Shown piece by piece: positions 1-17,477 of a stretch of 64,000 bases of DNA. The stretch's first letter is position 1. The number at the start of each line of letters is the position of its first letter. The notes beneath the pieces were generated by a model. That model did no database searches. It was given only the letters and a program-made list of their open reading frames with translations, and was not told the origin of the DNA. The position numbers and the translations under genes are program-made. The stretch comes from Reichenbachiella agarivorans (GTDB taxonomy: Bacteria > Bacteroidota > Bacteroidia > Cytophagales > Cyclobacteriaceae), in assembly GCF_025502585.1 (NCBI RefSeq), contig NZ_CP106679.1:1891501-1955500 (forward strand). Direction: 5' to 3'.

Positions 1-1029
1 ATGGTATCATACCTCCGACTGTTATTGATCGGAGGTATGATGTCATTCTTTATATCCTTGAGATCCTTTGCTCTTTCGGTTGATTCATATGTAGTTGAGA
101 TCAATTCAATGCGAGTCACGGATTCAGAATTCAGAATACACCTCAACCGCAACATAGCTGGCACATACAATTATTATTATCAGCAGTGGGGTGTACATCC
201 TCATGCGGCTTTTTGGGAGACTCAGTATGGGGAGAAGACCCCCCAATCCTACATCCTAGAGAAAACCCTGTCACAGCTCGTTGATATCAAATTGAAACAG
301 CAATTGGCTACTCAAATGGGATTAATAGTAGAGTTTACATTTGATTCATTACAAGGCTGGTGGGTGCAGGACAATAAGGACAGGAAACTAAAAAAATCAC
401 AGGGAGGAGTAGTGTATGGACCCGTAGAGAGAACTTTTGCTGATTTCTATGATTATTTTTATGACCGTCTGTTTATTAAACTACAAGAAGAGGTGAATCA
501 AAATCTACTCTCTGCTAGTACATCACAACTGGAAGCATATTATGAATTGAACAAGGAGAGATGGTTTCAGTATAGTCCTGATGCAGAAGTAGAGTATATC
601 GAGTTTCAATATGACGGATCATCCGACAGGGATCAAGTAGCTCATCTCGTAGAGCTAACCTATGACAAACTCTCGAAAGGAATGGAGATGAGTACGCTAT
701 TGTCAGCATTTCCTCAATACAGCTATCGTCATCAAACATACGTCAAAACGGACGATGTCTTGGGAGAAGAAGATGTGGAGGGTCAGCTTATAGCCTGGGC
801 ATTGGAGCTCGATGTTGACGAGTTGAAAATTTTTAATGGGAGATCGTCCATGTATATCATGCATTGTATAAAAAAATCACCCAAACAAACATACTCCTAT
901 GACGAGATCAAAAGAGATGTACAGTGGTATTATCAAAAGTATCGTTACCAAGAATTGTTGGACACATTGAAACAAAATGCCAAGATTAATGTCAACGATG
1001 AAGTTCTCGACAACATAGAGATTCAATAG
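1..1029 (+). CDS. SurA/PpiC-like exported protein, possible peptidyl-prolyl isomerase
   Basis: A 342-residue protein with a hydrophobic N-terminus (about residues 4-25) that looks like an export signal, then a helical, charged body. The layout (a helical N-terminal segment mentioning a conserved-looking LVDIKLKQQLA stretch near residue 90, a linker, then a region near 195-300 that could be a degenerate rotamase fold) resembles SurA/PpiC periplasmic chaperones, but I see no clear parvulin active-site motif. The reading frame starts at base 1, so an upstream start outside the window cannot be excluded; in-frame ATGs at 37 and 40 follow a 10-bp inverted repeat (9-18/29-38) and are alternatives. 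It converges on the regulator gene with only 22 bp between the stop codons. The function is tentative. Confidence 0.45.
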   Translation: MVSYLRLLLIGGMMSFFISLRSFALSVDSYVVEINSMRVTDSEFRIHLNRNIAGTYNYYYQQWGVHPHAAFWETQYGEKTPQSYILEKTLSQLVDIKLKQQLATQMGLIVEFTFDSLQGWWVQDNKDRKLKKSQGGVVYGPVERTFADFYDYFYDRLFIKLQEEVNQNLLSASTSQLEAYYELNKERWFQYSPDAEVEYIEFQYDGSSDRDQVAHLVELTYDKLSKGMEMSTLLSAFPQYSYRHQTYVKTDDVLGEEDVEGQLIAWALELDVDELKIFNGRSSMYIMHCIKKSPKQTYSYDEIKRDVQWYYQKYRYQELLDTLKQNAKINVNDEVLDNIEIQ

Positions 1030-1051: not shown

Positions 1052-4000
1052 TTATTGCTCCACATTTTTCTTGTTGTATTCCGAAGGAGTCATTCCATAT
1101 TCTTTTTTGAAACAAGATCTAAAATAATCTGAATCATTGAATCCTACCATGTGTCGGATTTGATCAATATTTACCTTCTTCTGTGAGAGCAATTGACCTG
1201 CCTTCCTAATACGATAGGATCTAATAAACTCATTTGGGGACATGTTCATCAGTGATTTGATTTTTCGATAAAAATGCACCCTACTGATTCCGATTTCTTT
1301 GCTCAATCGATCTACGGACAGGTTGGTGTCTGAGATATTGTCATCGATGTATTTAATGGCATCTTTAATCAAATTTTCTTCATGAGATGAAATCTGCTCC
1401 GGCATCAACAATGATTTTTTCTCAAACTGTTTGCGTAGGTTTTCTCGACGTGAAATCAGCGTATCTACTCTGGTTTTAATCGTTTCCAGGCTTTTGCTTA
1501 TAATCAGATACTCCTCTGCATTGAGGTCATTGTGAAAACTATCATCCATCTTTTCTTTCATAAGGAAAATGATAGGGATATTCAAGGTACGCTCGTCAGA
1601 TTTTATCTTTTGACATAGTTCGAGTCCATCAATCACATCCAATTCTTCATTGATGATGATGAGTCTAGGGACAAGATCCAAGGCCACTTTCCAACCTTCC
1701 ATGCCATCTGTGGCAGAATAGATATGGTAATAATCCTGCAATTGATTTCGCAAAATCTCAGTGATGCTTTCGTCTTGTTGTATGATGAGAATGTTATGAT
1801 GGATTGCGACTTCATTGGTGATTTCCAACTTGTCTTTAGGATTGTAATTTTCTTTTGATACGATGGTATCCTCATATATTTTGTAGGTTTCGTCTACAAT
1901 GTCTGACGCATCAAAGTGTGCGTGTCCAGTCTTCAAGGTCACGCATATTTTTGTCAATCCAGCTTGCTTTTCATTGCCTTGGATACTCTCTACGTGAACT
2001 GAGCCATGATGCTGACCAATTATTTTTTTGGAATGATCCAAACCAATACCGTCACTCATCGAAATACGGCTTCCGTTGTTTGATAGGTGATAGAATCTAT
2101 CAAACATATGAGGAATATCTTCAGGTGAATATCCTTTGCCGTTGTCTTCAATGATCAAGTCAATGAGCTCATCCGACAATGAACCATTTTCGTTCACATG
2201 TTTTCTGATGTAGAGATTAAGAACACCGTTCTCATTGCTGTGTTTAAAGGCGTTTGACACAAGATTATTGATCACAAAGACAAACTTGTCAGGATCGATC
2301 CACACGGGGAATTCTTCTTCCTCTGATATAATGTTGAAATCTATGTTCTTAATTTTTGATAATTCATAAAAATCAACAGCAGTATGGTGAGCAAATGATA
2401 CAAGGTCAATATGCTGCACACGTAGGATGCTGTTTCCCGTTTCTAACCTCCTCACGTCGACGATTTGATTGATTAGACTCAATATACTTTCCGCATTTCT
2501 TTTCGCAATTTTGAGTCTTTTCTTTATTGCTGGTTCTACTTTTTGCGCCAGTATATCTTCTATGGGAGATAGAATCAGTGTCAATGGGAGCTTAAATTCA
2601 TGTGAGATATTGATGAAAAACTGTGACTTGAGTTGTGACAACTCTGCTTCTTTATTCTTCTCAAGCTCCTCTACCTTTAGTTTGTTTTTCATGGCTTGCC
2701 AAGACGCTGAAAAATGGTAGAACAAATACATGAGAACTAATATTACAATCGTGTAAATGAGAAAGGCAATGGTAGACTTATAAAACGGAGGGTTGACCCT
2801 TATTTCAATAGAAGTATATTGATCATCCCAGATTTGATTAGAACTACTAGCTTTTAGTTTGAGGGTGTAATTACCTGATGGTAAATAATTTAGATTCAAT
2901 GTGTTTTCGTCCAGGAGTTGCCATTCGGGAGACAAGTCTTCAAGAAGGTATGAATAATAGATATGATTCTGTTGGCTATAATTAATCGCTGAAAGGAATA
3001 ATTTAATGATCGTTTCATCATGATCAAACTCGATGGTTTGTAGGTACTGTACATTGCCATATTTGACCAATAGCTCGGGGTTTTTCATGATGCTTTGTTG
3101 ATTGATCGTTATGTCATTTACCCATATTTTAGGAAAGACATTTTTGGAGGTGATTTTGGATGGCTGGAACTTGATCAGTCCATTTCTAGTTCCAAAATAC
3201 ATTTCCTTACCCTGAGCATTTAATGAAGACCGAGGGAGGAATAATGGTTCAATACCGATGTTGTTCATCGTAAAATCCATGATGTTGAATTGCAACGATT
3301 GCATGTTGTCGGATTGGTAAGTCTCTATTTTTGACATCCCTTCAAAGGTTGTCGCCCAGAGATTTTGATTTTCATCAATCTCCATTGCTTTGATCCTGTT
3401 GCTATACAAGCCTTCATCTTTAGTCAATATCCGGTACTCATTGGTAGTTGGGTCATAATAGATCAATCCTGAGTTTTCAGTGCCTAGCCATAGCCTGCCT
3501 GATTTGTCTTGTTTGATGACTCGTATGTTGTGGGATTCAAAATTTAGGCTTTGACCATTGACAGATCGGGTTAGATGAGTTTTTGAATCAAATGCCGACA
3601 ATCCAGCATTTGACCCCATCCATATCGTATTGTCATCAGTAGCATAGAGCGCAAAGATGAAATTGGAGGATCTATTGAAGTGGTTGTAATACTGCGTGTA
3701 TTTTTCTTCGTCAGGGTCGAACCCAAAAAGGCCACTACCATTGGTTCCAATCCAGATTTGATTGTTTGCATATACGATGTTATTAATTTCTTTGAGGCTA
3801 CTGTCCAAATTGAAATCCAAGGGGTAATCTTCGATTTGATTAGTAGTTTTGTTGTATTTGATGATCCCATCGCTCGTACCTATCCATATGTTGTTTTTCC
3901 CATCATAGACCATACACCGCGCTCTGATGTCGTTTGCTTTCAGTACAGAGGTGACTTGTTCACTGTCATCTGAGTCGGGGTAAAGGGATAAATAATACAG

Positions 4001-5200
4001 TCCCTGATTGGTACCAAACCAAATCTTTTTGTCTTCTGTCTGTACCATCGCTGTGATCACATGGCTAGGATCGTAGTAGCTTTTTCTAGTAGCCGTTGTA
4101 GATTTATTGATCAACTCAAAGGTGCTACCATGACTCACAAACCGGTAGACCCCTCCATGATAAGTAGCGACCCAAAAATTCCCGTCTTCGGATATGAATA
4201 TGTCTTTGATTGATCTATTCAATAATAGCGTTTCTGTGGATTCCGTCTTCGTATTGAACATGAATAGGCCATTGCGTGTGCCTATTAATATTTCGTCTTT
4301 TTGGTAGGGTTGAATGACCCTAATCGAATTTGAGTTGACTTTGTCTGTCAATCTGAATTTGTCCTTTGTACCAGCTTTGATATCATATTTGGTAAGACCC
4401 TTGTATTCATTCTGTGTACCTATCCAAATCACACTGTCTTCTTTGTTGAGAGACAGAGATCTAGGGTTTTCCTTCTTCGTGTTTATCAACAACTGATCGG
4501 GGTATGGGCTGTTTGAATAGACGCCACCATTATACGAGATAATAGAAAAACCAAACTGTGACAAAACAATCAGGTTGCCATCATAATAATCTATGATGTC
4601 TTTTACATCTAATTCTTGCTTGTCGTTGAAATTATAGTTCCATTGAAACCTGCTAAACTTTCTACTGGCAATAGATCCCATGTACAATCCATTGTTGGTG
4701 CAGATCCAAAGGTTGTGATTTTGATCTTCATAGATTTTTCTTACCAAGGTGTACCTTTCCTCATTGTTGTCATTTAGGAGCGGAATATGTAGGAATGAAT
4801 TGTTTTCTTTCGACCAAATATTGAGCCCACGACTGGTACCAATCCATAGGTTGTTCTGACTATCGTTGAACAGGGACCATATCCAATTTGAAGTTAATGA
4901 GGTTGAGTCTTGATTTTCTGAAATGAAAGTTTCGGAGTATGAACCGTCGTATTTTATGAGCCCATATTGAGTGCCGAACCACATAAACCCATCCTTGTCC
5001 TGTGTGATCGCATATACAGGATTGTCGAGAGACTCTACATGTGCATCAATAATGGGCAAAGCCTGATCTGCCGATATTGCTGAGAAAGTATAAAAGTAAA
5101 GTATAAAAAGAAGTATTGGTAATTTGCCGTAGATATTGGAAGATAGGCGCCTACAAAGTATTCTTAGACTTATTACTAAGTTTTTTTCTTTTATAATCAT
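1052..5200 (-). CDS. Hybrid two-component regulator (HTCS) of the PUL, with degenerate receiver
   Basis: Single-chain sensor of about 1382 residues. After a signal/anchor segment there are about 13 Reg_prop propeller blades with W(I/F/L)GT-type motifs (about 40-690), a Y_Y_Y domain (about 705-800), one membrane segment (about 805-828), a histidine kinase with His867 in ISHEF, an ATPase domain with N box NNLVSNAFKH and DNGKG, a receiver-like domain (about 1138-1250) and an AraC-type HTH (about 1280-1375). Such proteins sense oligosaccharides in the periplasm and activate SusCD operons. The receiver has Asn1184 where the phospho-acceptor Asp is expected, QQD in place of the acidic pocket, and has also lost the Thr/Ser and Lys. 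The ATPase G2 box reads SDGIGL, so its first Gly is also replaced. I chose the ATG at 5200 over the TTG at 5257. It probably controls the adjacent PUL. Confidence 0.93.
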   Translation of the reverse strand: MIIKEKNLVISLRILCRRLSSNIYGKLPILLFILYFYTFSAISADQALPIIDAHVESLDNPVYAITQDKDGFMWFGTQYGLIKYDGSYSETFISENQDSTSLTSNWIWSLFNDSQNNLWIGTSRGLNIWSKENNSFLHIPLLNDNNEERYTLVRKIYEDQNHNLWICTNNGLYMGSIASRKFSRFQWNYNFNDKQELDVKDIIDYYDGNLIVLSQFGFSIISYNGGVYSNSPYPDQLLINTKKENPRSLSLNKEDSVIWIGTQNEYKGLTKYDIKAGTKDKFRLTDKVNSNSIRVIQPYQKDEILIGTRNGLFMFNTKTESTETLLLNRSIKDIFISEDGNFWVATYHGGVYRFVSHGSTFELINKSTTATRKSYYDPSHVITAMVQTEDKKIWFGTNQGLYYLSLYPDSDDSEQVTSVLKANDIRARCMVYDGKNNIWIGTSDGIIKYNKTTNQIEDYPLDFNLDSSLKEINNIVYANNQIWIGTNGSGLFGFDPDEEKYTQYYNHFNRSSNFIFALYATDDNTIWMGSNAGLSAFDSKTHLTRSVNGQSLNFESHNIRVIKQDKSGRLWLGTENSGLIYYDPTTNEYRILTKDEGLYSNRIKAMEIDENQNLWATTFEGMSKIETYQSDNMQSLQFNIMDFTMNNIGIEPLFLPRSSLNAQGKEMYFGTRNGLIKFQPSKITSKNVFPKIWVNDITINQQSIMKNPELLVKYGNVQYLQTIEFDHDETIIKLFLSAINYSQQNHIYYSYLLEDLSPEWQLLDENTLNLNYLPSGNYTLKLKASSSNQIWDDQYTSIEIRVNPPFYKSTIAFLIYTIVILVLMYLFYHFSASWQAMKNKLKVEELEKNKEAELSQLKSQFFINISHEFKLPLTLILSPIEDILAQKVEPAIKKRLKIAKRNAESILSLINQIVDVRRLETGNSILRVQHIDLVSFAHHTAVDFYELSKIKNIDFNIISEEEEFPVWIDPDKFVFVINNLVSNAFKHSNENGVLNLYIRKHVNENGSLSDELIDLIIEDNGKGYSPEDIPHMFDRFYHLSNNGSRISMSDGIGLDHSKKIIGQHHGSVHVESIQGNEKQAGLTKICVTLKTGHAHFDASDIVDETYKIYEDTIVSKENYNPKDKLEITNEVAIHHNILIIQQDESITEILRNQLQDYYHIYSATDGMEGWKVALDLVPRLIIINEELDVIDGLELCQKIKSDERTLNIPIIFLMKEKMDDSFHNDLNAEEYLIISKSLETIKTRVDTLISRRENLRKQFEKKSLLMPEQISSHEENLIKDAIKYIDDNISDTNLSVDRLSKEIGISRVHFYRKIKSLMNMSPNEFIRSYRIRKAGQLLSQKKVNIDQIRHMVGFNDSDYFRSCFKKEYGMTPSEYNKKNVEQ

Positions 5201-5656
5201 GCTGCTGCTAGTATCAATAGTTTCAATAATCAATGCTTTCGAGTCAATATGAATCAACTAAAAAGTAGGTGACCTAGGAGTCTATGAAAAACATGATCTG
5301 ACCAATTGGCCATTGGATCAATATCTATGTTTCATCACGTACAACTACGCCGTTTTAATATTTGGTTGGTTGGGTTTTTGATTACTTTGATAGTAAAAGA
5401 GTGCTTTAGGCATTTAGTCTTCATGAGCCTATCTTTTACCAGCTCGCTGTAATCTTAGTATTTAATTCAACTCTATTCATGGCCAATTTGTGAGAAAAAC
5501 TGGTTTAGTATTTAGGAATGGTGTTGAACGAAGGAGTTAAAAATACCACGCTGTAGCGAACGGTAAGTTTATTCCTTAAAATCAAAAAAATCAATATTTG
5601 ATTCTTAAAAGTTTTTTCGTCTAAGATACCAGAAATAATCAAACAAGGGGGGTTGA

Positions 5657-5726
5657 TGTAACATCTCTCTAGTATAAATGTAACCCCAAATGGGCAGAAG
5701 TATCCTCATATGGGCAAATATGATCA
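5657..5726 (+). promoter_or_regulatory. Degenerate member of the 22-20-22 TGYWAC operator family
   Basis: TGTAAC occurs at 5657 and again at 5679. The next two expected positions hold weaker matches, AGTATC (5699) and TGATCA (5721). The layout fits the same four-site spacing seen upstream of SusC and two other PUL genes, but only the first pair is convincing. It lies about 255 bp upstream of the lipoprotein start. Confidence 0.35.
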
Positions 5727-5981: not shown

Positions 5982-7250
5982 ATGAAAGCAAAACAATTAC
6001 TTTATTCAACTATTACGCTATTGGTACTGACGATCTCGTCATGTGAAGTTGACGATTCGGCAGGTAGGATGTTTCCAGGGGATCCAGCCATCAATTCTGG
6101 AGTAGAGACTGTGGACTTTGGAGAAGTTGTAGCAGGGCAGACAGCTACTATATCTACCTATGTGATAGGCACTGGTATTGATGATGGACTGACACTCACT
6201 GTCGAAGGAGAGGGCTATCAGGTGAGTCGAGACAAATTTCGAATAGTGACAGATACCAGCTTTGTAAACATCATATTTGCTCCTGATATCGAAGCAGCCT
6301 TAGGCGCCACCAATGGGACAGTGACTCTTTCGGCAGGAGATATTACTAGTACCATTCAATTGTCATCAGTAGTACTCACCCCATCTATCATCACCGCAAG
6401 TGAAGAGGTAGTTAACATAGGGGATGTGGTGGTAGGTGCCAGTGATTCTAAGACCATTTCTGTGGAAGGTCAATTTATCCCTGGTGCAGTACAAATATCC
6501 GCTACGAGTGGATTTAGTGTCAATCCGACATCATTTGACGTAGGAAATGGAGAACATCAATTGACCGTGACCTATACAGCAGATGCTGCGGCATCAGAGG
6601 GGGCAGTTTCTGGAGAGGTGACATTTAGTTATGGTTCAGGATTGAGTTCTACTTTGCCTGTCACTGCCAATATTGTATTGACACCACCCTCAGCATTGCC
6701 TGATGGTACAGTTATTTATCAAAACGAGTTGGATTTCCCAAATAGCCCAGCTGATGATACTGAATTTGTATTGGCAGATTTGCAGGGACTATCTACTACC
6801 TTATATAGTGGTGTATCAGCGACTTATGATCTAGCGATAGGAGTAGGTGGAGCAACAGGAATGGAAGTACAGCATGCTATGTGTGTAGATGCCATCAATG
6901 GAAGTACAGCAGGCAAGAGTGATGCATGTAACACTTCGGCAACTTTGAAACAACTAGGGACTAAGGTCACTGTATCTCTGACGGGACTTCCAAAATTGGT
7001 AGCTGATTATACTGTGACTTTTTGGGCTAGACCCGCAGCAACTTCTGAGAGAGAATTGATTGTCAATTTTGGAGGGACGCTATTCACACATATTTTTAAT
7101 GGAGCAAGTAGCAATTCCTATTACAAATTTGAGGTTGAGGGCTCGTCTGACAAAGACGGCAATATTGTATTCGATTTTGGAAATAATACAGACAATACAT
7201 TTAGAGGAATCGACTTTGATCATATCGAAATCGTAGCTGGAGGGATCTAA
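5982..7250 (+). CDS. Surface/periplasmic lipoprotein with Ig-like repeats and C-terminal lectin-like domain
   Basis: A 422-residue lipoprotein with a signal peptide and lipobox ending ISSC at about residue 21. Two related beta-sandwich repeats follow, each containing a V(D/N)(F/I)G(E/D)VV module (about 43-133 and 140-233). A distinct C-terminal domain (about 240-420) ends with NIVFDFGNNTDNTFRGIDFDHIEI, written here only as its hallmark F-R-G-I-D-F-D segment, reminiscent of carbohydrate-binding jelly rolls. By position and architecture it could be a surface glycan-binding protein in the SusE/SusF sense, though it sits upstream of GH2 and SusC rather than after SusD. A strong terminator follows the stop codon, so it may be transcribed alone. 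The exact family is not recognised. Confidence 0.55.
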   Translation: MKAKQLLYSTITLLVLTISSCEVDDSAGRMFPGDPAINSGVETVDFGEVVAGQTATISTYVIGTGIDDGLTLTVEGEGYQVSRDKFRIVTDTSFVNIIFAPDIEAALGATNGTVTLSAGDITSTIQLSSVVLTPSIITASEEVVNIGDVVVGASDSKTISVEGQFIPGAVQISATSGFSVNPTSFDVGNGEHQLTVTYTADAAASEGAVSGEVTFSYGSGLSSTLPVTANIVLTPPSALPDGTVIYQNELDFPNSPADDTEFVLADLQGLSTTLYSGVSATYDLAIGVGGATGMEVQHAMCVDAINGSTAGKSDACNTSATLKQLGTKVTVSLTGLPKLVADYTVTFWARPAATSERELIVNFGGTLFTHIFNGASSNSYYKFEVEGSSDKDGNIVFDFGNNTDNTFRGIDFDHIEIVAGGI

Positions 7251-7285
7251 GCTCAGGTTTTTGTACCAATGATATAAATATTGAG

Positions 7286-7321
7286 ATGACTGTCTTCCTA
7301 TCGGGAGGCAGTCATTTTTTT
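7286..7321 (+). terminator. Rho-independent terminator after the lipoprotein gene
   Basis: Inverted repeat ATGACTGTCTTCC / GGGAGGCAGTCAT with a 4-nt loop, followed directly by a run of eight T. It separates the lipoprotein from the GH2 gene. Confidence 0.85.
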
Positions 7322-7373
7322 ACCATGTCAAGAAAATTGAAGAGGTTCTAATACATTTTAAACACATAATAAC

Positions 7374-9182
7374 ATGAGACAGATAAAGAATATTTTCATT
7401 TTGTTCCTCACTTTAAGGGCACTTGCGGTGAGTGCTGGTGATGCTCAGGATTTGTTGCAAAACGCATCCAATCGTGTACATCAATCTTTGGATGGTACAT
7501 GGCAAATCATCGTCGACCCAATGGAGACTGGTTATTATAACCATGGCTGGAAGCCTAAAAAGAATGGCTATTTTATGGACGAAAAACCAAAGAGTGTTTC
7601 GGATCGAGTCGAATATGATTTTGACACTAGCGACGAATTGTATGTACCTGGTGACTGGAACATGCAAGCTGATCGGCTCTACTACTACGAGGGTACAGTT
7701 TGGTACCGAAGAAAATTCCTAATTACAAAAGAGAGCGAAAAGAAATATCATTTGTATTTTGGAGCGGTCAATTACCGGTCAATCGTTTATTTAAATGGAG
7801 AACTTGTAGGCGAGCATATTGGAGGCTTTACTTCATTCAACTTTGATGTAACTGATTTGCTACAGGAGGGGCAAAATACCCTAATCGTAAAAGTAGACAA
7901 TACCAGAGACAAGGACGGTGTACCTACGATCAACACAGATTGGTGGAACTATGGTGGAATCACACGATCAGTGCTACTGGTAGAAACACCGCAGGTTTTT
8001 GTCCAAGATTATTCTATCCAACTCAGCAAAAACAACACAGTCGAAGGCTGGGTAAAACTCAACAACAATAATGCTGGAAAGGTAGAAATAGCAATTGAGG
8101 GAATAGGAAAACAGGTAGTACAAGTCAAAGCAGGGAAGGCCTCATTCGAGTTTGACAAGTCCCCCAAGCATTGGTCCTTGGATGATCCATACCTGTATCA
8201 GGTTACCTTGAGTTGCAATGGAGAAAATATCAAAGATGAAATTGGGTTTAAGTCCATTGCCGTACAGGGTCAGGATATAATGCTCAATGGAGAGTCTGTC
8301 TTTTTGAAAGGAATCAGTATTCATGAGGAAGCACCCTTTGGGACTGGACGGGTGACCACCCGTGAGCAGTGCAAAATCTTACTGGACTGGGCCAAGGAGT
8401 TGGGGTGTAATTATATCCGACTGGCACATTATCCTCACAGTGAGACAATGGTACGCATGGCAGAAAAAATGGGGTTCTTGATTTGGTCAGAAATCCCCGT
8501 GTATTGGACGATCAATTATGACAACCCATCAACCTATAGCAATGCTGAAAATCAACTGGTAGAAATGATAACTAGAGATAAAAACAGAGTCGGGATTGGT
8601 CTCTGGTCGGTAGCCAACGAAACACCCGTCATCGATTCAAGGAATGAATTTTTGAACAAACTGATCAAAAAGACGCGTGATTTGGATCCTACGAGACTGA
8701 TTTGTGCTGCATTGAATACCCAAAAGTCAAAGAATGGAAAGAACTTGATTGATGACCCATTGGGAGAATATGTGGACGTGATTGGTATCAACAGCTACTG
8801 TGGATGGTATGGCGGGACACCCGAATCATGCTCCTCATGGGAATGGGCTACCAAATTTAAGAAGCCGATGATTATGAGTGAAGTAGGTGCAGGTGCGCTA
8901 CAAGGCTATCATGGTGAAGAAAATGTCAGATGGACTGAAGAATATCAATCGGCAGTATTTCATAGCAATATTGAAATGTTGAAGAATATTGACTTCCTAA
9001 GAGGAGTATCACCATGGATACTGATGGATTTTAGATCACCGAGAAGGTCTCTTAAGAACATTCAAAATGATTTTAATAGAAAAGGATTGATTTCAGAACA
9101 AGGACTTAAAAAGGAATCCTTTTTTATACTTCAGAATTATTATAATTCATTGCCAAACCAAATGAAAAATACCGCAAAATAA
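7374..9182 (+). CDS. Secreted GH2 glycoside hydrolase, putative beta-glucuronidase
   Basis: 602 residues with an N-terminal signal peptide, then the GH2 order: sugar-binding jelly roll (about 30-200), Ig-like domain (about 205-300) and TIM barrel (about 300-600). The acid/base is Glu416 in SVANE and the nucleophile Glu503 in MSEVGAG, 87 residues apart as in the family. Near the C-terminus NRKG supplies Asn568-x-Lys570, the NxK motif that binds the glucuronate carboxylate in characterised beta-glucuronidases, and it follows a DFRSPRR segment typical of that GH2 group. It would remove terminal beta-linked uronic acid (glucuronate or possibly galacturonate) from oligosaccharides in the periplasm. 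It lies between the lipoprotein and SusC. Substrate assignment is inferred. Confidence 0.85.
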   Translation: MRQIKNIFILFLTLRALAVSAGDAQDLLQNASNRVHQSLDGTWQIIVDPMETGYYNHGWKPKKNGYFMDEKPKSVSDRVEYDFDTSDELYVPGDWNMQADRLYYYEGTVWYRRKFLITKESEKKYHLYFGAVNYRSIVYLNGELVGEHIGGFTSFNFDVTDLLQEGQNTLIVKVDNTRDKDGVPTINTDWWNYGGITRSVLLVETPQVFVQDYSIQLSKNNTVEGWVKLNNNNAGKVEIAIEGIGKQVVQVKAGKASFEFDKSPKHWSLDDPYLYQVTLSCNGENIKDEIGFKSIAVQGQDIMLNGESVFLKGISIHEEAPFGTGRVTTREQCKILLDWAKELGCNYIRLAHYPHSETMVRMAEKMGFLIWSEIPVYWTINYDNPSTYSNAENQLVEMITRDKNRVGIGLWSVANETPVIDSRNEFLNKLIKKTRDLDPTRLICAALNTQKSKNGKNLIDDPLGEYVDVIGINSYCGWYGGTPESCSSWEWATKFKKPMIMSEVGAGALQGYHGEENVRWTEEYQSAVFHSNIEMLKNIDFLRGVSPWILMDFRSPRRSLKNIQNDFNRKGLISEQGLKKESFFILQNYYNSLPNQMKNTAK

Positions 9183-9573
9183 ACCATGTTCCGTGCGGTG
9201 TAGTCGCGACCACAGTTGTTGGTTATAGAAAAGCAGGCTAACGAATGACCAGAGCAAATGAGTGTAGCTAAGTGAGAATTGGATGCTGTTACACCAATTT
9301 GGCTAACAATTGTAACGTGTACCCTGTTTTTCTGTAACTAACAATCAATTAATGTTACTTCTAGCCGGCTTAATAGCAACAATCAGTAGGCTGTTTTTGA
9401 GCAGACACGGACGATTATTACAACTTAAATATTGAAATGTGAAATGAAAATATTAAAGTTCATTTGAATTTAGTCGAGTCGAATAGAACATTGATATTGT
9501 CGGTTTGATAAACAGTCTAACGATTATTCAGGTTCATGTTTTTTTATTTTAACGTGATTTCTTACTAAAATAA
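9183..9573. promoter_or_regulatory. Intergenic region upstream of SusC
   Basis: 391 bp without a gene. It holds the best-placed copy of the PUL operator array (9311-9380) and one extra TGTTAC at 9287. The last 190 bp before the SusC start are AT-rich and should carry the promoter. Confidence 0.6.
9311..9380 (+). promoter_or_regulatory. Operator array TGYWAC x4 (22-20-22 bp) upstream of susC
   Basis: TGTAAC at 9311, TGTAAC at 9333, TGTTAC at 9353 and AGCAAC at 9375, all in the same orientation with start-to-start spacing of 22, 20 and 22 bp. The same layout occurs upstream of 28473 and 31403. Two-helical-turn direct repeats are what an AraC-type regulator dimer would bind; the HTCS is the obvious candidate. 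Confidence 0.65.
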
Positions 9574-12522
9574 ATGATTATGAAAAAGCTATTACTAGTT
9601 ATTAAACTTGGCTTGATATTACCCGGGCTGCTGCTGGCATTTCAGCTGCAAGCTCAACATACTGTGAGTGGGAAAGTAACAGGTCAAGAAGATGGAATGG
9701 GATTGCCGGGGGTGAGTGTATTGATCAAAGGATCAACGACTGGTACAGTTACCAACGTCGATGGAGCATTCAAAATAAGTGCAAAACCAGAAGAGGTATT
9801 GGTTTTCAGTTTTATTGGATACATCAGTCAGGAAGTTGTTGTAAGCAACAGCACTGAAATGAATGTAGCGCTGGAAATTGATGTAGAGCAGCTAGATGAA
9901 GTTGTCGTCGTAGGATATGGAACTCAAAAGAAATCCGATGTGACGGGTGCTGTAGCTACTATGTCACAGGATCGCTTGGAAATGGTACCCAATACCAACG
10001 TAGCACAAGCACTGCAGGGGTCAGTAGCTGGGGTGTCGGTGGTTACAGCATCTGGAGGTGCAGAAGGGAATGACGCCAATATCATGATTAGAGGTAGAAA
10101 CTCTATCAAGGCAAGTAACACTCCATTGATCGTACTGGATGGTATGCCTTATAGTGGTAGTCTCTCAGAGATCAACCCTACTGATATTGCGTCTGTCAAT
10201 GTTCTGAAAGATGCATCATCTACTGCTATCTATGGATCAAGAGGGGCCAATGGTGTCATCCTTATTACTTCTAAAAAGGGAGTTAAAGGTGCAGCCAGAA
10301 TTAGCTATGCGGGATTCTATGGTATTCAGCAAATGACGAATGTCCCTGACTTATTGACTTCAGAAGAATTCTATCAGTTTAAAAAGACAAGGAAAGCATC
10401 TGCAATTACTGCCTCCGAGGAAGATTTTTACCAAGACGGCAAAACGACCGATTGGATAGATATAGCTACTCAACAAGGAAACAAGCAACAGCATACTTTG
10501 ACAGTGTCTGGAGGAAGTGACAATATAAAGTATTATGTATCTGGTAGTTATCTTGATGTAGAGGGGATTGCTGTCAATGACCTGTTTAAGAGATACAGCA
10601 TGCGAATCAACCTAGAAGCTAAGATTACCAATTGGCTGACGTTTGGTACCAATACACAATTGTCTTTATCAGATAGAAGTGGACAGGATGCCAGCTGGAG
10701 TGGGGCTCAAGATGGAGCATACTATATGAATCCATTGACCGAACCATATGACGCTGATGGTAATCAGTTGGTTTACCCTTGGAAAGAATCTATTTATTGG
10801 GGCAATCCATTGTCTGGCTTGCTAGAAGAGGATAGTGACAAAAATTACAAGATAGTTACAAACAACTATTTGCAAGTAGATCTGCCATTCGTGCCAGGCT
10901 TATCTTACAAGTTGAACACAGGTATCGAGTATGATCATAGATATAGACAAAACTATGCCGGTAGAGATACAAAGTCAGGATTTGAGAACAGAGGCGTATC
11001 AGATACACGTACAGATTTAGATACCAACTTTCTGATTGAAAACATTCTGAACTATAAAAAGTCATTTGGCAACCACAACTTCTTTTTGACTGCACTTTAC
11101 AGTTATCAAAATGATGTTGAAAACATGGAAGGCCTTGATAGCAATGGTTTCCCCAACGACGTATTGACTACCTATCAGGGTTATTTAGCTGCGTTGAATG
11201 TACCTAAGTATGCTTACCAAGAATTTGTATTGTTGTCTACTATGTTGAGATTCAACTACAACTACAACGACAAATACTATGTGACATTTACAGGAAGAAG
11301 AGATTCTTACTCTGGTTTTGGTGCCAACACCAAGCACGGTATATTTCCTTCAGTAGCGTTGGGATGGAGCATACACAATGAGTCATTTATGTCTGCCATA
11401 CCTACGATCAGCACGTTGAAACTACGAGCGAGCTACGGTATCAACGGTAACCAAGCTGTAGACCCATACAGTTCGCTATCTAGATTAAATGACCGTTCAT
11501 ATTTGGATGGATCCACGCAGGCAGCAGGATATTACCCGAGCAAACTAGGTACGCCAGATCTGGGTTGGGAACAATCTGCTTCTGTCAATATTGGACTTGA
11601 TTTTGGCGTGTTTCGTGACAGAATACAGGGCAGCCTAGAGTTGTATGAGACACATACCACAGATCTGCTGCTGGACAGGGAGATATCACCAGTACATGGT
11701 ATCACTACTGTGACACAAAACTTGGGAGAAACTAAGAATAGCGGGATAGAACTGTCATTGAATGCCAATGTGGTGACAGCCGGAGATTTTTCATGGGATG
11801 TCTCTGCCAATGGCGCATTTATGAAAAATGAAATCGTAGACCTATACGGAAACGGAGTAGATGATGTGCTAAACCAATGGTTTATAGGAGAAGCAATCAA
11901 TGTAAACTATGGTTATCAATTTGACGGGGTGTACCAAGAGTCAGATTTTGAGGATCCTGCTTATGAGCCTGCTATTCCAGGTGCACAGCCAGGATGGGCT
12001 AAAATAGTTGATCAAAATGGAGATACACTTATTAGCACAGACAGCGATAGAGTGATCCAAGGACAGACAGATCCCAAGTTTATCACTGGTTTGCAGATGA
12101 ATTTCCGGTACAAAAACTTCGGGTTGTCTATTTTCTCTAGAAGTGCTCACGGTATGACAAGAAATAATACACTACTCAACGATGATGTTTGGGGAGATGT
12201 AGAAAGAAATACCACAATGAAGAACTGGTGGACGCCTGAAAATCCTACCAATGAATATTGGGCAAACGATGAGAACGCTAACACAAGAGGGGTAAACATC
12301 TATGAGGATGCCAGCTTCTGGAGATTGCAGGATGTTACTTTTTCTTATGACTTGCCTAAGAGCTTGCTAGAACGAGTGAGAATCAACAATGTCAAATTGT
12401 ATGTGACGGGTCGTAATTTGATCACGGTGACCAATTTTGGCGGGTTGGATCCTGAGCTGAGTAGCTCAAGAGAAATACCACTACAGAGAGAGTTTGTTTT
12501 TGGTCTTAATGTTGGATTGTAA
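9574..12522 (+). CDS. susC: SusC-family TonB-dependent outer-membrane transporter
   Basis: 982 residues. Signal peptide, then a CarboxypepD_reg-like domain (about 28-105) with the GVSVLIKGSTTGTVT signature, the SusC box around LDEVVVVGYG (about 110), a plug domain with ALQGSVAGV and GSRGANGVILITSKKG, and a 22-strand beta-barrel to the C-terminal FVFGLNVGL. It imports oligosaccharides across the outer membrane together with the SusD lipoprotein encoded next. It is at the short end for SusC proteins. An ATG two codons downstream (9580) is an equally good start. The upstream operator array suggests this is the main inducible promoter of the PUL. Confidence 0.97.
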   Translation: MIMKKLLLVIKLGLILPGLLLAFQLQAQHTVSGKVTGQEDGMGLPGVSVLIKGSTTGTVTNVDGAFKISAKPEEVLVFSFIGYISQEVVVSNSTEMNVALEIDVEQLDEVVVVGYGTQKKSDVTGAVATMSQDRLEMVPNTNVAQALQGSVAGVSVVTASGGAEGNDANIMIRGRNSIKASNTPLIVLDGMPYSGSLSEINPTDIASVNVLKDASSTAIYGSRGANGVILITSKKGVKGAARISYAGFYGIQQMTNVPDLLTSEEFYQFKKTRKASAITASEEDFYQDGKTTDWIDIATQQGNKQQHTLTVSGGSDNIKYYVSGSYLDVEGIAVNDLFKRYSMRINLEAKITNWLTFGTNTQLSLSDRSGQDASWSGAQDGAYYMNPLTEPYDADGNQLVYPWKESIYWGNPLSGLLEEDSDKNYKIVTNNYLQVDLPFVPGLSYKLNTGIEYDHRYRQNYAGRDTKSGFENRGVSDTRTDLDTNFLIENILNYKKSFGNHNFFLTALYSYQNDVENMEGLDSNGFPNDVLTTYQGYLAALNVPKYAYQEFVLLSTMLRFNYNYNDKYYVTFTGRRDSYSGFGANTKHGIFPSVALGWSIHNESFMSAIPTISTLKLRASYGINGNQAVDPYSSLSRLNDRSYLDGSTQAAGYYPSKLGTPDLGWEQSASVNIGLDFGVFRDRIQGSLELYETHTTDLLLDREISPVHGITTVTQNLGETKNSGIELSLNANVVTAGDFSWDVSANGAFMKNEIVDLYGNGVDDVLNQWFIGEAINVNYGYQFDGVYQESDFEDPAYEPAIPGAQPGWAKIVDQNGDTLISTDSDRVIQGQTDPKFITGLQMNFRYKNFGLSIFSRSAHGMTRNNTLLNDDVWGDVERNTTMKNWWTPENPTNEYWANDENANTRGVNIYEDASFWRLQDVTFSYDLPKSLLERVRINNVKLYVTGRNLITVTNFGGLDPELSSSREIPLQREFVFGLNVGL

Positions 12523-12561
12523 TTCAATTCCAGACCTTTTTAAAACTAAAAATACAGAACA

Positions 12562-14211
12562 ATGAAATATCTAAAATATAGCTTAATGATCAGCCTTTTT
12601 GCAAGCCTATTCTTGGCCTGCTCAGAGGACGTATTGATAGAAACTCCTCCACATACCATCGCAGCAGACAACCTGTATGTGGATTTGGCGGGGTTTGAAT
12701 ATGGACTGAATGGACTTTATGCCCAATTCAGAAGAGAACGCGGAGGGGAGACTTTTGGAGGACCAAATGACCTCATGATCGACCCTGCTGTTGCGGGTGT
12801 GGACAATTGCTATGGCAACCACGACAATGGCTGGAATTTGGTAGGCAATGATTTTTCTAGAAATGTGCCTAGTGAAACACACAATAGAAATTTTTTCGAA
12901 TGGATTTACCAAACTATTAATTCTGCAAATACTATCATAGATAGGGCGGAGAATCCAGATATAGAATGGTCTGATGCAGAGAAAAATGGCGTATTGGCTG
13001 AGGCTCGTTTATTCAGAGCTTGGGCATATAGACACGCCACTTATATGTGGGGAGATGTGCCTCTAGCGCTTCACGAATCTACCGGTACCAATATCAAGAC
13101 TGATTGGGTGCGATCACCTATAGAAGAGGTTAGAGTTCAAATGGAAGAGGATCTATTGTTCGCTGAAGAGCACATGAGAACACCTTCCAATGATGGTAAA
13201 GTTTCTAAATATGTAGCGTCACATTACCTAGCTGAGCTCTACTTGGCCATGGGAGAGAATGAAAAAGCAAGAGACAAAGCATTGGCAGTAATGGCTGGTC
13301 CATATAGTTTGATCACCAGCAGATATGGAAAAACGGCCAATGAAGGAGGAACTCCTTTCACTGACATGTTTATCCACGGAAATTCTAACCCATCAGAAGG
13401 AAATACTGAAGCCCTATGGGTGATGCAGCACGAGGTAGATGTCAATGGTGGTGGTGACAATATCATGAGGAGATGGCACAGAAACTCAGCTGAAGGTGTA
13501 AGAGTCGATGGTACTTCAGGAGCTATTAAGGTGGATATCGAAAATGGAGGAAGAGGTTTAGGTCGAGTAGGCCCTACTAGGTATGCACTGGAGCTATATG
13601 GCCCTACCGATGATCGGGGTGGTTATTATGCCTGGAGAAGCTATGAAATACTGAATAATCCTAATGTGATTCCAGTAGGCACCAACCCAGATACAGGCGA
13701 GGCTTGGGCGCTAGGTGATACCGTAAAATTTGATTGGCAAGGCCAAAATGAAAAAACTGAAAATGCTTACTGGCCGAGTACACGCAAGTGGGATTATGCC
13801 AATCCACTAGATACTGCTGGCTCAAGAAGCTACAACGATCAGGTGTATTTGAGGTTGGCTGAAACCAAGTTAATATTAGCAGAAGCACAATTTTTATTAG
13901 GTGATGCACCTGCAGCAGCAGCCACTATCAATGAACTGAGAAATCGTGCCAATGCTACGCCTATTACAGCTGGAGATGTCTCTCTTGATTTCATATTGGA
14001 TGAGCGTTCTAGGGAGCTTTATTCAGAGGAGCACCGTCGCTACACCCTTGTCCGAATGGACAAGTGGATGGACAGAACAATCCAATACAATCTCGTAGGA
14101 GGCCCGACTGTAACGGAAAAGGATAAATTATTACCGATTCCACAATCAGTGATTGACGCCAATTTGACCCTGCCTATGGCACAAAATCCAGGGTACTCAG
14201 GCGCTGAATAA
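12562..14211 (+). CDS. susD: SusD/RagB-family glycan-binding lipoprotein
   Basis: 549 residues with a lipobox ending FLAC around residue 20, the SusD-like N-terminal domain, and the RagB/SusD C-terminal region with the characteristic NDQVYLRLAETKLILAEA segment (about 422-440) and a DERSRELYSEEHRR-type motif near 490. It caps the SusC barrel and delivers glycan. It starts 39 bp after SusC and is followed by a terminator, so susC-susD form a compact unit. Confidence 0.96.
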   Translation: MKYLKYSLMISLFASLFLACSEDVLIETPPHTIAADNLYVDLAGFEYGLNGLYAQFRRERGGETFGGPNDLMIDPAVAGVDNCYGNHDNGWNLVGNDFSRNVPSETHNRNFFEWIYQTINSANTIIDRAENPDIEWSDAEKNGVLAEARLFRAWAYRHATYMWGDVPLALHESTGTNIKTDWVRSPIEEVRVQMEEDLLFAEEHMRTPSNDGKVSKYVASHYLAELYLAMGENEKARDKALAVMAGPYSLITSRYGKTANEGGTPFTDMFIHGNSNPSEGNTEALWVMQHEVDVNGGGDNIMRRWHRNSAEGVRVDGTSGAIKVDIENGGRGLGRVGPTRYALELYGPTDDRGGYYAWRSYEILNNPNVIPVGTNPDTGEAWALGDTVKFDWQGQNEKTENAYWPSTRKWDYANPLDTAGSRSYNDQVYLRLAETKLILAEAQFLLGDAPAAAATINELRNRANATPITAGDVSLDFILDERSRELYSEEHRRYTLVRMDKWMDRTIQYNLVGGPTVTEKDKLLPIPQSVIDANLTLPMAQNPGYSGAE

Positions 14212-14227
14212 TATCAACCACAACAAC

Positions 14228-14266
14228 AAGAGCTTCCCACCAAGTGTGGTGGTGAAGCTCTTTTTT
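14228..14266 (+). terminator. Terminator after susD
   Basis: GAGCTTC / GAAGCTC stem extended by CACCA / TGGTG around a 4-nt loop, followed by six T. It probably causes partial termination, lowering expression of the downstream enzymes relative to SusCD. Confidence 0.8.
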
Positions 14267-14319
14267 CTACTGCTCTACCCACTCTGTTTCGAATCTTCAT
14301 TCTCATCAAACTCTACAAA

Positions 14320-15759
14320 ATGAAAAAGAGTCTTTTTGCAATTTTAATCACCTTACTTTCTGGGTGTTCTGGCATCACTGATAAAAAAACAGATATACAA
14401 CAGCCTTATATCTATGTAGATGCTAAAGTCAAGGTCTATCATGCTGATGGTACGCGCAGCTACAAAGAGTACCAGCCTTTCGAGACACGTACTGTGCAAT
14501 TACTTAAGGATTACAAAACGCCACATGAAAAACCTGCCCTAAGCAAATATGGAGGTGTTTTGACAGGAAAAACTGAAGCCACAGGCTTCTATTATGTAAA
14601 AAGGATGGATGATCGGTGGTGGGGAGTAGATCCACTAGGTTACCGTCATTTTAGTATTGCACTCAATGGGGTGAAAAGAAATAGGTCAGAGCGCAATAAG
14701 AAGGCCCTGGTCGAAAAATTTGGTACTCATGAAAATTGGCTCAAAGAAACGATCGCTTTGTTGCAGAACAATGGATTCAACGGTACTGGCTCGTGGTCTG
14801 ACCATGAAGCCATAGTCGAACTAAACAAAACTTTGGATCAACCTATCGCTTACACGATCAATTGGGATTTTATGGGTGGATATGGTTCAAAACGAGGAGG
14901 GACCCATCAGCAATCAGGTCATAGAGGATACCCTAACAATGCCATTTTTGTGTTTGATCCAGAGTTTGAATCATTTTGTGATGAGCATGCCCAAAAATTG
15001 GAAAAATTCAAAGATGACCCCAATTTATACGGTCATTTTTCTGACAATGAAATGCCTTTCAAATTCACGGCCATTGACAACTACCTCGCTCTACCAGAGA
15101 CAGATTATGGCTACCTCGCGGCACGTGCTTGGTTGGACGACATGGGGATCACTCAAGAGCAAATAACAGACGAACACCGTCATTTATTTATGTCCTATGT
15201 CGCAGACAAGTATTTCTCGATAGTATCTAAGGCTATCAAAAAATATGATCCCAACCATCTGTATATCGGTTCGAGATTCTATAGTAGAGAAAAGGACAAT
15301 AAGATGTTTATGGAAACAGTAGGGAAGTACTTGGATGCTATCTCAATTAATTATTATAATTATTGGACTCCTGATTCTACGCAAATGTCCAATTGGGCCA
15401 AATGGTCTGGGAGACCCTTTATCGTGACGGAATACTATACCAAAGGCGAGGACTCGGGGATGGGAAACAAGAGTGGTGCGGGTTGGATAGTTCGCACACA
15501 AGAAGATAGAGGGCTTTTTTATCAAAACTTTAATTTGGCTCTTTTGGAATCCAAAAATTGCGTCGGGTGGCATTATTTCAAATATCAGGACAATGATCCC
15601 GAAGACAAAACCGTGGATCCTTCGAATGTGGATGCCAATAAGGGTGTCGTAACTAGTGAATATAAGGTATGGGAACCCATGCTAAAAAAGATGAATGAAT
15701 TGAATCAACAGGTGTACCCTGTGATAGAATATTTTGATCATCAACAATCGAATATTTAA
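14320..15759 (+). CDS. Lipoprotein glycoside hydrolase of the GH-A clan, GH50/agarase-like
   Basis: 479 residues, lipobox LLSGC near residue 16. The mature part begins with a segment containing FYYVKRMDDRWWGVDPLGYR, typical of agarase-type enzymes of the GH-A clan, then a TIM-barrel pattern. The likely acid/base is the Glu in HFSDNEMPF (about residue 244) and the likely nucleophile the Glu in FIVTEYYTKGEDSG (about 371). It probably attacks oligosaccharides at the cell surface or in the periplasm. The similarity to GH50 is my judgement from motif style; the bond cleaved in this locus, which otherwise points to a uronic-acid polymer, is unknown. It lies between susD and a sulfatase gene. Confidence 0.6.
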   Translation: MKKSLFAILITLLSGCSGITDKKTDIQQPYIYVDAKVKVYHADGTRSYKEYQPFETRTVQLLKDYKTPHEKPALSKYGGVLTGKTEATGFYYVKRMDDRWWGVDPLGYRHFSIALNGVKRNRSERNKKALVEKFGTHENWLKETIALLQNNGFNGTGSWSDHEAIVELNKTLDQPIAYTINWDFMGGYGSKRGGTHQQSGHRGYPNNAIFVFDPEFESFCDEHAQKLEKFKDDPNLYGHFSDNEMPFKFTAIDNYLALPETDYGYLAARAWLDDMGITQEQITDEHRHLFMSYVADKYFSIVSKAIKKYDPNHLYIGSRFYSREKDNKMFMETVGKYLDAISINYYNYWTPDSTQMSNWAKWSGRPFIVTEYYTKGEDSGMGNKSGAGWIVRTQEDRGLFYQNFNLALLESKNCVGWHYFKYQDNDPEDKTVDPSNVDANKGVVTSEYKVWEPMLKKMNELNQQVYPVIEYFDHQQSNI

Positions 15760-15881: not shown

Positions 15882-17477
15882 ATGAACAAAATATGCACTA
15901 TGCTATTGTTGTCAGCTGTGGCGAGTAGCTGCATGCCGACGAGCCAAACAAATGAGGTGGTTTCACCTAATGTACTTTTTATATCCATAGATGATCTCAA
16001 CGATTGGGAGGGATCAATGATGGGACACACGCAGGCCATCACACCCAACATGGATAGACTTTTTGAAAGCGGGGTGTTGTTTACCAACGCGCACTGCTCG
16101 CAAGCGGTCTGCACCGCTTCTCGAAACTCAGTCCTCAGTGGTATCCATCCTTCGTCTTCAGGCTGGTACACCAATGGAGCTGCCATGAAAAAGAACTATG
16201 ATGAGGTGATGGCTGATCACAAAATGTTGCCAGAGTACTTCAAAGATCAAGGCTACCATACCTATGCCACAGGGAAAGTCTTTCACAATGGAGAGTCCGA
16301 CTTTTCTGATAGGACGGGGGATTTCTGGACGGAATATGCTCCGCGTTTTTGGAATGATATGGATGAAAAAATAGAGAAGACAGGCTATGGCTATCGTGGC
16401 AAAATGTTCTTCCCTTTTCCAAAAGATGGAGGTCAGATGGTGCAGCTGTATGGCGAGGATACAATCAATAATTTCTATAGACAAAACAACCGATTTTATT
16501 CTTTGGCAGGTGGGCCATTGAGCGATGATGAAATACCTGAGAATGGCATGTACGATGAACAAATAGCTGACTGGGCCATTGAAAAAATCAGCAAAAAACA
16601 AGATAAGCCATTTTTTATGGCAGTAGGATTCATTCGACCACATGTGCCCTATACTGCACCTCAAAAATACTTTGACTTATATAACATCGACTCGGTACAT
16701 GTCCCAGTCGTACCAGACAATGAATTTGAAGACATTCCTATCATGGGAAAAGCTATCGCCTATGGATATACACCACGAGGAGGCTGGGGTGATGTGTCTC
16801 AAAGACAGGAAATATTGCCAGAATTGGTACATGCTTATTTGGCATGTGTTTCATTTGTCGATGACCAGGTGGGGAGAGTACTCGAAGCATTGGAAAATAG
16901 CCCTAATGCAGATAATACAATCATAGTACTGTGGTCTGATCACGGTCAGCATTTGGGTGAAAAGCGCCATTTTAGAAAGCAAGCACTTTGGGAAGAGGCT
17001 ACTAGAGTTCCTCTGTTTTTTCGTGTGCCTGGCAATCAACATGTGGGTCATCAAAGCAAACAGGTAGTGAGCTTGCTAGATATCTATCCGACTTTGGCCG
17101 AACTGTGTGGATTACCAGTACCTAAAAAACTAGAGGGAGAAAGCTTGGTTTCGTTGTTAGACAACCCAAAGCTGAATAAAGACAAGCCTGTTTTGACTAC
17201 TTGGCTGTATAAAAATCATGCAGTGAGAAGTAATGATTGGCGATACATCTTGTACCGAGATGGAGGTGAGGAGCTGTATCATCATGGGACAGACCCTGGT
17301 GAGCACACCAATCTAGCTTTTGATCCTCAGTATGCGCAGGTAATCGCTGAGCATAAGAAATGGCTCCCAGCCCACGATGCGTTGCCCGCTGGTGAAACAG
17401 AATGGAAGGGGGATAATTTGGATAGGTTAGTAGAAGAATGGACAGTCAATGATACCATGCCTGATTGGTTGAAGTAA
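15882..17477 (+). CDS. S1-family sulfatase, iduronate-2-sulfatase-like lipoprotein
   Basis: 531 residues with a lipobox-like SSC at about residue 17. The alkaline-phosphatase-fold sulfatase core has the metal-binding Asp37-Asp38 in ISIDDLND, the formylglycine site Cys77 in CTASR (the C-x-A-x-R form of the consensus), a distal metal site WSDHGQHLGE and the C-terminal AVRSNDWRYILYRDG stretch common to iduronate-2-sulfatase-like enzymes. It removes sulfate esters from oligosaccharides after maturation of the Cys by a formylglycine-generating enzyme encoded elsewhere. It is closely similar along its whole length to the sulfatase at 29673-31241. It converges on the beta-helix gene at 17551 with a shared terminator. 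Confidence 0.92.
   Translation: MNKICTMLLLSAVASSCMPTSQTNEVVSPNVLFISIDDLNDWEGSMMGHTQAITPNMDRLFESGVLFTNAHCSQAVCTASRNSVLSGIHPSSSGWYTNGAAMKKNYDEVMADHKMLPEYFKDQGYHTYATGKVFHNGESDFSDRTGDFWTEYAPRFWNDMDEKIEKTGYGYRGKMFFPFPKDGGQMVQLYGEDTINNFYRQNNRFYSLAGGPLSDDEIPENGMYDEQIADWAIEKISKKQDKPFFMAVGFIRPHVPYTAPQKYFDLYNIDSVHVPVVPDNEFEDIPIMGKAIAYGYTPRGGWGDVSQRQEILPELVHAYLACVSFVDDQVGRVLEALENSPNADNTIIVLWSDHGQHLGEKRHFRKQALWEEATRVPLFFRVPGNQHVGHQSKQVVSLLDIYPTLAELCGLPVPKKLEGESLVSLLDNPKLNKDKPVLTTWLYKNHAVRSNDWRYILYRDGGEELYHHGTDPGEHTNLAFDPQYAQVIAEHKKWLPAHDALPAGETEWKGDNLDRLVEEWTVNDTMPDWLK

Follow-up and report, generated by a model that had tools for sequence, protein, structure and literature searches.

In the canonical hybrid two-component systems (HTCSs) of Bacteroidota polysaccharide utilisation loci (PULs), a propeller sensor, a Y_Y_Y domain, HisKA, HATPase, a receiver and an AraC-type DNA-binding domain (DBD) are joined in a single chain. 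Such proteins normally activate genes of sugar breakdown by handing a phosphoryl group from one of their domains to the next. Here we describe an HTCS gene from Reichenbachiella agarivorans whose receiver domain lacks the residues of phosphotransfer. The gene lies in a stretch of 64,000 nucleotides, referred to as the window (NZ_CP106679.1, positions 1891501-1955500; G000:C1 in our labelling), from a genome that consists of one contig of 4.47 Mb.

The control of HTCS output has been described by Gao, Wu and Stock (PMC11253607), who report a latch formed by the motif S/CHIP in the alpha3-beta4 loop and by a D and a K in the DBD, which keeps the DBD off DNA until phosphorylation. The S/CHIP-DK latch is present in most, not all, HTCSs, and its alteration in BT4124 led to phosphorylation-independent DNA binding (PMC11253607). 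The same paper describes BT4236, which has no kinase His (Q848) and carries the latch CSIP-EK, and its authors suggest that this protein acts independently of phosphorylation. Predicted HTCS binding sites are direct repeats that lie on average 21 bp apart (Ravcheev et al.; PMC3878776). Pseudo-receivers make up about 6% of bacterial receivers according to a 2025 review (PMC12632262), in which 18 of 20 bacterial atypical response regulators are orphans and two are not, and in which the way bacterial pseudo-receivers are activated or inactivated is called a mystery. Where their phospho-acceptor Asp is replaced, Asn is the second most frequent substitute (PMC12632262, PMC4395418). The main text of the review contains neither 'Bacteroid' nor 'AraC', and titles and abstract starts of the open-licence literature yielded no report of an HTCS with a pseudo-receiver among the matches listed. 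As pseudo-receivers and BT4236 are already published, neither idea is new by itself.

The receiver active site

The HTCS gene lies on the minus strand and reads from a TTG. The in-frame ATG at 5200 sits 19 codons after it, so that the residues numbered His867 and Asn1184 in a first-pass annotation of this DNA are His886 and Asn1203 here. Pfam recognises Reg_prop, Y_Y_Y, HisKA, HATPase_c, Response_reg and HTH_18 in the protein, and a single hydrophobic, presumably transmembrane, segment (residues ~823-852), read from the sequence, follows Y_Y_Y. The layout is as follows:

1052..5257, minus strand: HTCS gene with pseudo-receiver, 1401 amino acids from TTG; alternative ATG start at 5200
2993..5080, minus strand: Reg_prop beta-propeller sensor, residues about 60-755; PDB relatives 4a2l and 3v9f
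2795..2983, minus strand: Y_Y_Y domain, residues 759-821 (Pfam)
2435..2629, minus strand: HisKA, residues 877-941, with His886; Leu890 replaces the H-box Thr (HEFKLP)
1934..2296, minus strand: HATPase_c, residues 988-1108; N box, G1, F box and the last two Gly of G2 retained
1484..1792, minus strand: pseudo-receiver (Response_reg), residues 1156-1258, with Q1160, Q1161, N1203, E1204, M1233, K1234 and I1253
1649..1651, minus strand: codon of Asn1203, at the phospho-acceptor Asp position by alignment
1574..1585, minus strand: LNIP, residues 1225-1228, where the receiver-DBD latch has S/CHIP (motif from PMC11253607)
1379..1381, minus strand: Glu1293 in place of the alpha6 latch Asp, placed by the published 39-residue distance
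1070..1306, minus strand: AraC-type HTH_18 DBD, residues 1318-1396 (Pfam)

The protein shares with HTCSs the order of propeller, Y_Y_Y, HisKA, HATPase, receiver and AraC helix-turn-helix in one chain, a location beside the susC/susD genes of a PUL, and predicted tandem direct-repeat sites with a 22-bp period, close to the period of about 21 bp of HTCS sites. A phospho-accepting Asp is missing from its receiver, and the S/CHIP-DK latch is absent (LNIP and Glu1293, with Lys1332 retained), though present in relatives described below. Judged by its sequence, the window protein is an HTCS by architecture with a pseudo-receiver, not a canonical phosphorelay HTCS.

HTCS tails from the kinase to the DBD were aligned in 98 rows, comprising the window protein, 68 rows of a first search that span kinase to DBD, and 29 of 30 later loci; 91 tails were distinct after identical ones had been merged. 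Because the 87 comparison HTCSs were chosen for their similarity to the window protein, they do not sample HTCSs at random. Four proteins, called the clade below, lack the phospho-acceptor Asp: the window protein (genome G000), its orthologue from the same genus, g1 (G196, a single contig), and the two proteins of the g37 pair (G289 and G284). Residues of the clade are listed in this order. At the phospho-acceptor position, the clade reads N, N, A, A (N1203 in the window), whereas 87/87 comparison HTCSs have D. The first acid of the pocket (E or D in 87/87) is Q, D, D, D (Q1160), the second acid (D in 87/87) is Q, K, G, G (Q1161), the Thr/Ser site (T or S in 87/87) is M, M, T, T (M1233) and the Lys site (K in 87/87) is I, I, K, K (I1253). 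The position after the Asp (D+1), which is V, I, L or W in 87/87 comparison HTCSs, is E in all four clade members (Glu1204 in the window; 1646-1648, minus strand), and the position after the Thr (T+1), A or S in 87/87, is K, K, P, P (K1234). The first-pass annotation had read Asn for the phospho-acceptor, QQD for the acidic pocket, Met for Thr/Ser and Ile for Lys, and each of these substitutions is borne out by the alignment. Two residues come close to the canonical pattern: Asp1162 directly follows the acid pair, at a position that is Asp in 4/4 clade members and in 4/87 comparison rows (mostly Asn), and Lys1255 lies two residues past the Lys site. As none of the five sites of the window protein is canonical and 4/4 clade members lack the Asp, normal phosphoryl transfer to the window receiver is very unlikely. 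This supports the earlier proposal that signalling would have to work without it.

The Glu at D+1 in all four Asp-less receivers could represent a built-in charge near the former active site.

Two other explanations were considered and rejected. The receiver aligns without gaps from the acidic pocket to the Thr site and from a conserved Tyr to the Lys site, so that no shifted register puts an Asp back at the phospho-site. A sequencing error was discarded because the G196 orthologue, 76% identical to the window HTCS, carries the same N, M, I and LNIP.

The window receiver scores 37.1 bits against PF00072 (Response_reg; cutoff 30.2) with all five phosphotransfer residues replaced. AlphaFold2 models of the receiver-DBD region were computed for the window protein and for a control with an intact receiver (L054) from the same 31 sequences, the window plus 30 rows taken from the 41 of loci L052-L127 that could be aligned. 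Both proteins gave folded models. The window domain is predicted to fold as a receiver, with a mean predicted local distance difference test score of 85.6, and its model matches 9dvt_R with a Z-score of 22.0 and a root-mean-square deviation of 1.5 over 121 residues, consistent with a (beta-alpha)5 fold. The window model has a shorter helix alpha4 (97-102) than the control (99-107). Foldseek with the window model and VIA-align with both models matched the receiver part only, among the matches listed; a solved HTCS receiver-DBD entry found by sequence, 12aw, was absent among the structure matches listed.

Stepwise loss within a clade of four

The four Asp-less HTCSs form one side of a branch with a Shimodaira-Hasegawa-like approximate likelihood ratio test support of 100, in a quick tree built from kinase and DBD with the receiver excluded. 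The G284 and G289 proteins are 44-45% identical to the window HTCS, and the open frame is full-length in all four genomes. Under strict E-value limits, no Asp-less member beyond these four was found in samples of the family (295 and 390 genomes, overlapping samples of a larger family), the order (390), the phylum (395), the genus (8) and g37 (15); the order search gave one further match, G341, with 31% identity. A related-locus search returned 76 loci, and all 41 rows that could be aligned from kinase to DBD retain the Asp.

Identities between window and G196, and within the g37 pair, are 94% and 98% for HisKA, 82% and 93% for HATPase, 75% and 95% for the receiver, and 99% and 100% for residues 1291-1395, which include the DBD; the propeller is 72% identical between window and G196. 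Between window and G196, conservation is lower in the receiver than in the HATPase; the same is true in 1/11 comparison pairs, and not in the g37 pair. By the Nei-Gojobori method (NG86), the ratio of non-synonymous to synonymous substitution rates (dN/dS) of the receiver is 0.028 for G289-G284, at a dS of 0.93; for the window-G196 pair, NG86 dS is undefined for most of the other domains. The window receiver looks selected and is predicted to retain the receiver fold.

The kinase motifs are preserved. His886, Glu887, N-box Asn1002, G1 and the F box are retained in the window protein, as the first-pass annotation had stated for the His and the N box, and the phospho-His and ATP-binding motifs are present, as residues, in 4/4 clade members. 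The G2 loop had been singled out as altered in the same annotation. Its first Gly is indeed Ser in the window protein, but Ser also occurs in 4/87 comparison HTCSs and was rejected as a special feature. The H-box position at His+4, whose Thr is linked to the phosphatase activity of such kinases, holds T or S throughout the comparison set (87/87). It is occupied by Thr in the g37 pair too, but by Leu in window and G196. When the latch residues D1344 and K1383 of PMC11253607 are placed on our alignment by their 39-residue distance, the latch reads CHIP-D-K in the g37 pair and LNIP-E-K in window and G196.

The x position of the G2 loop (residues 1068-1070; 2048-2056, minus strand) is Asp in all four clade members (SDG or GDG). 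In the comparison HTCSs it is mostly T, S, V or F, with no Asp among the 85/87 listed.

As read from these sequences, the loss is stepwise. The Asp and the second acid went first, together with the appearance of Glu at D+1 and a bulky T+1. The Thr, the Lys, the H-box Thr and most latch contacts were lost later, in one genus only. This order is what would be expected if phosphotransfer had already gone.

The adjacent PUL and its predicted operators

The window HTCS is divergent from a set of PUL genes, listed here with the predicted operators and with one further gene beside the PUL (1..1029):

5657..5684, plus strand: predicted operator 1, TGTAAC-N16-TGTAAC, between the HTCS and the divergent PUL gene at 5982
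5982..7250, plus strand: probable lipoprotein (by a signal seen in its sequence) without family match; homologous proteins at the remaining three clade PULs
7374..9182, plus strand: glycoside hydrolase family 2 (GH2) glycosidase
9311..9338, plus strand: predicted operator 2, TGTAAC-N16-TGTAAC, upstream of susC
9574..12522, plus strand: SusC (TIGR04056)
12562..14211, plus strand: SusD
14320-15759, plus strand: protein without Pfam match at the thresholds used, 82% identical in G196
15882..17477, plus strand: PUL sulfatase
1..1029, plus strand: LnbY-like protein, weak match (41 bits against a cutoff of 400), beside the PUL in all four clade genomes

G196 has the same gene order at 55-86% identity. 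In G289 and G284 the HTCS is likewise divergent from SusC (48%) and SusD (47%), with homologues of the lipoprotein and the LnbY-like protein behind. Within the genus, the HTCS and the PUL SusD are both present in 2/8 genomes and both absent in 6/8, at the thresholds used.

A tandem repeat, TGWAAC-N16-TGWAAC, was spotted by eye when the intergenic regions were compared. The window holds two such sites, against a shuffle expectation of 0.02, G196 has one at each of the two matching places, and the G289 and G284 loci have one each, between HTCS and susC. In all four genomes the sites point toward the PUL gene. Exact sites also occur in intergenic DNA at 3/7 sister-HTCS loci (L034, L035 and L036, from G159, G090 and G212). 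Wider flanks, taken for six of these seven loci (not L045), contained a one-mismatch site in L171 (of L051) and no site in L172 and L173. The exact tandem site had no match in 1.67 Mb of other loci, nor in ten stretches encoding a SusD of 43-49% identity and lacking a full-length HTCS; these were drawn from 17 SusD places as those without a known HTCS, with G284:C254 left out. The repeats at the window PUL are probable operators of the adjacent HTCS, predicted by position and conservation.

Genomes G159 and G090 each carry, immediately upstream of a SusC and a SusD that share 62-63% and 72% identity with those of the window, an HTCS whose receiver is intact; a tandem site stands in front of SusC in both. 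A SusD at the 72% level or above was found in only 4/390 family genomes (window, G196, G159 and G090), the next being at 51%. Closely related PULs thus differ between lineages in the HTCS at their side, which has an intact receiver in one case and a pseudo-receiver in the other. The two gene trees disagree on the loci concerned (window 5982-17477 and L169, L170, L131 and L132): window and G196 group with G159/G090 in the SusC tree, with the g37 pair outside, and with the g37 pair in the HTCS tree, with G159/G090 outside (FastTree support 1.0 in each). Because of this disagreement, regulator and transport genes seem to have recombined between lineages, apparently on a shared site type. We tentatively raise a wider scenario, to which we give less than even credence: that a phosphorelay gave way, in visible evolutionary steps, to a relay that is conformational throughout and runs from the sensor to the DNA by way of kinase core and pseudo-receiver. 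Nature would then have run the swap experiment, since 62-72% identical SusC and SusD, with the same kind of tandem site, stand beside an intact-receiver HTCS in two other genera.

Other genes of the region deserve mention. LnbY is a chaperone of lacto-N-biosidase, and the product of 17551-20763 (minus strand) gives a weak match to the lacto-N-biosidase LnbX (52 bits against a cutoff of 2500) as well as matches to CBM96/DNRLRE, a beta-helix and a type IX secretion system tail; beside the PUL of G196 and that of G289, a gene resembling it adjoins the LnbY-like gene. Further right, another set of polysaccharide genes (29673-38275, plus strand) encodes a sulfatase, DUF4861 twice, GH88 and a SASA esterase, with no regulator among the proteins scanned. 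The products of 28473-29624 and 31403-32995 (plus strand) are proteins of the polysaccharide region without Pfam match at the thresholds used.

Proposed signalling without phosphoryl transfer

We lean, with somewhat better than even confidence, towards a working HTCS-type PUL regulator that acts without phosphoryl transfer to its receiver, by a conformational relay instead of a phosphorelay. Glycan binding by the propeller would alter the dimeric kinase core, in its geometry or in its ATP or His-phosphate state. Docked on this core, and in the genus of the window without the consensus latch, the pseudo-receiver would relay the change in the kinase as an altered placement of the two DBDs. The paired DBDs would then bind the repeats of 22-bp period upstream of the PUL genes. 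If this is true, an HTCS kinase core is able to signal by shape.

Several observations weigh against this reading. The Asp-less clade comprises four sequences only, with full loss in two, and the g37 pair retains the Thr, the Lys, the latch and the H-box Thr, which were therefore not lost together with the Asp. The receiver dN/dS of 0.058 for window-G196 rests on a saturated dS of 2.7. AlphaFold2 does not fix the receiver-DBD arrangement, as the predicted template modelling score is 0.52 for the window and 0.53 for the canonical control. In the comparison set, 2/87 HTCSs have no latch His (one of them is L046, whose motif is LQIP although its phospho-acceptor Asp is intact), 20/87 have no latch Ser/Cys and 17/87 no alpha6 latch Asp (10 of these have Glu); since latch contacts vary in this set too, losing them says less than losing the active site. 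The tandem pattern was found post hoc in the same regions that were used to define it, its genome-wide count in G000 is 5 against 7 for a reversed-pattern control (G196, 6 vs 4; G289, 6 vs 1; G284, 5 vs 4), and no exact site was present at 4/7 sister loci (L045, L048, L049 and L051). Of the genome-wide matches, 2 in G000, 2 in G196 and 1 each in G289 and G284 belong to the HTCS locus. The post hoc origin of the pattern and a G000 count not above the control mean that the argument for operators rests on position and conservation. Finally, the conservation of the kinase would fit phosphoryl transfer in trans as well.

The rival that survives best, although we judge it unlikely, is a constitutive binder, in which a weakened latch leaves the operators always bound, output is set by the level of the regulator, and sensor and kinase are irrelevant. 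LNIP and Glu1293 in the genus of the window, the position of operator 1 between HTCS and divergent gene, and the phosphorylation-independent DNA binding of BT4124 with its latch changes (PMC11253607) are in keeping with this. Such a protein would have little use for the kinase and sensor that are kept between the g1 orthologues (HisKA 94%, HATPase 82%, propeller 72%), and the g37 pair, with an intact latch and no Asp, makes it less likely that the ancestral protein was simply released to bind DNA constitutively.

Less probable still, transfer in trans would have the kinase pass its phosphoryl group to a different HTCS, at the receiver, or to a separate response regulator, with the window HTCS as a sensor branch or heterodimer partner. 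The retained His, Glu+1, N box, G1 and F box would suit this, and the genome holds other HTCSs (L002-L007) as well as separate receivers. A search for a partner receiver had been suggested with the first-pass annotation. Such a partner may lie elsewhere in the genome, among the separate receivers; Pfam detected no second receiver domain in the 31 of 43 window open reading frames (at least 150 amino acids) that were scanned. The 99% conserved DBD and the sites at the linked PUL also point to direct action.

Residual or alternative phosphorylation, by deamidation of the Asn to Asp or with Glu1204, Asp1207 or another residue taking the phosphate, is very improbable. PMC4395418 mentions one receiver in which Asn reverted to Asp, and the clade has Glu at D+1 in 4/4 members (0/87 in the comparison set) and Asp after the acid pair in 4/4; against this, the acid pair, Thr and Lys are gone too, T+1 is Lys in the window, and Ala takes the place of the acceptor in the g37 pair. 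A regulator decaying into a pseudogene is the least credible of all, for although the window-G196 receiver falls below the HATPase in identity (75 vs 82%, as in 1/11 comparison pairs), the g37 pair has no such relaxation (receiver 95%, HATPase 93%), and the frames are full-length in four genomes, with low dN/dS, near-identical DBDs and conserved sites.

The conformational relay that we favour can be placed next to the systems described so far. One locus unites sensor, kinase, pseudo-receiver, DBD, probable targets and predicted operators, and the intermediate relatives and intact-receiver counterparts form a natural pair for testing pseudo-receiver function; taken together, these make switching by a pseudo-receiver directly testable. 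Like the canonical HTCSs BT4124 and BT4663, the window protein combines a one-chain architecture with susC/susD adjacency and tandem repeats, which average 21 bp in those systems (PMC3878776). It differs from them in a receiver without Asp, acid pair, Thr and Lys, in the absence of the latch contacts of S/CH and alpha6 Asp, and in the change of the H-box Thr to Leu. With BT4236 it shares a deviating latch and the suggestion of a phosphorylation-independent HTCS, but the two differ in what was lost: BT4236 has no kinase His, while the window protein keeps the His and has lost the receiver active site. As with known pseudo-receivers, PF00072 recognises the domain without its phosphotransfer residues. 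Known atypical regulators are mostly orphans, whereas the pseudo-receiver described here shares its chain with a sensor, a kinase and a DBD of its own. In ShkA and CikA a pseudo-receiver also lies in cis with a histidine kinase, whose autophosphorylation it inhibits (PMC12632262). Unlike in these two proteins, the pseudo-receiver of the window HTCS is the sole receiver that Pfam detects in the chain, and it carries the DNA-binding output.

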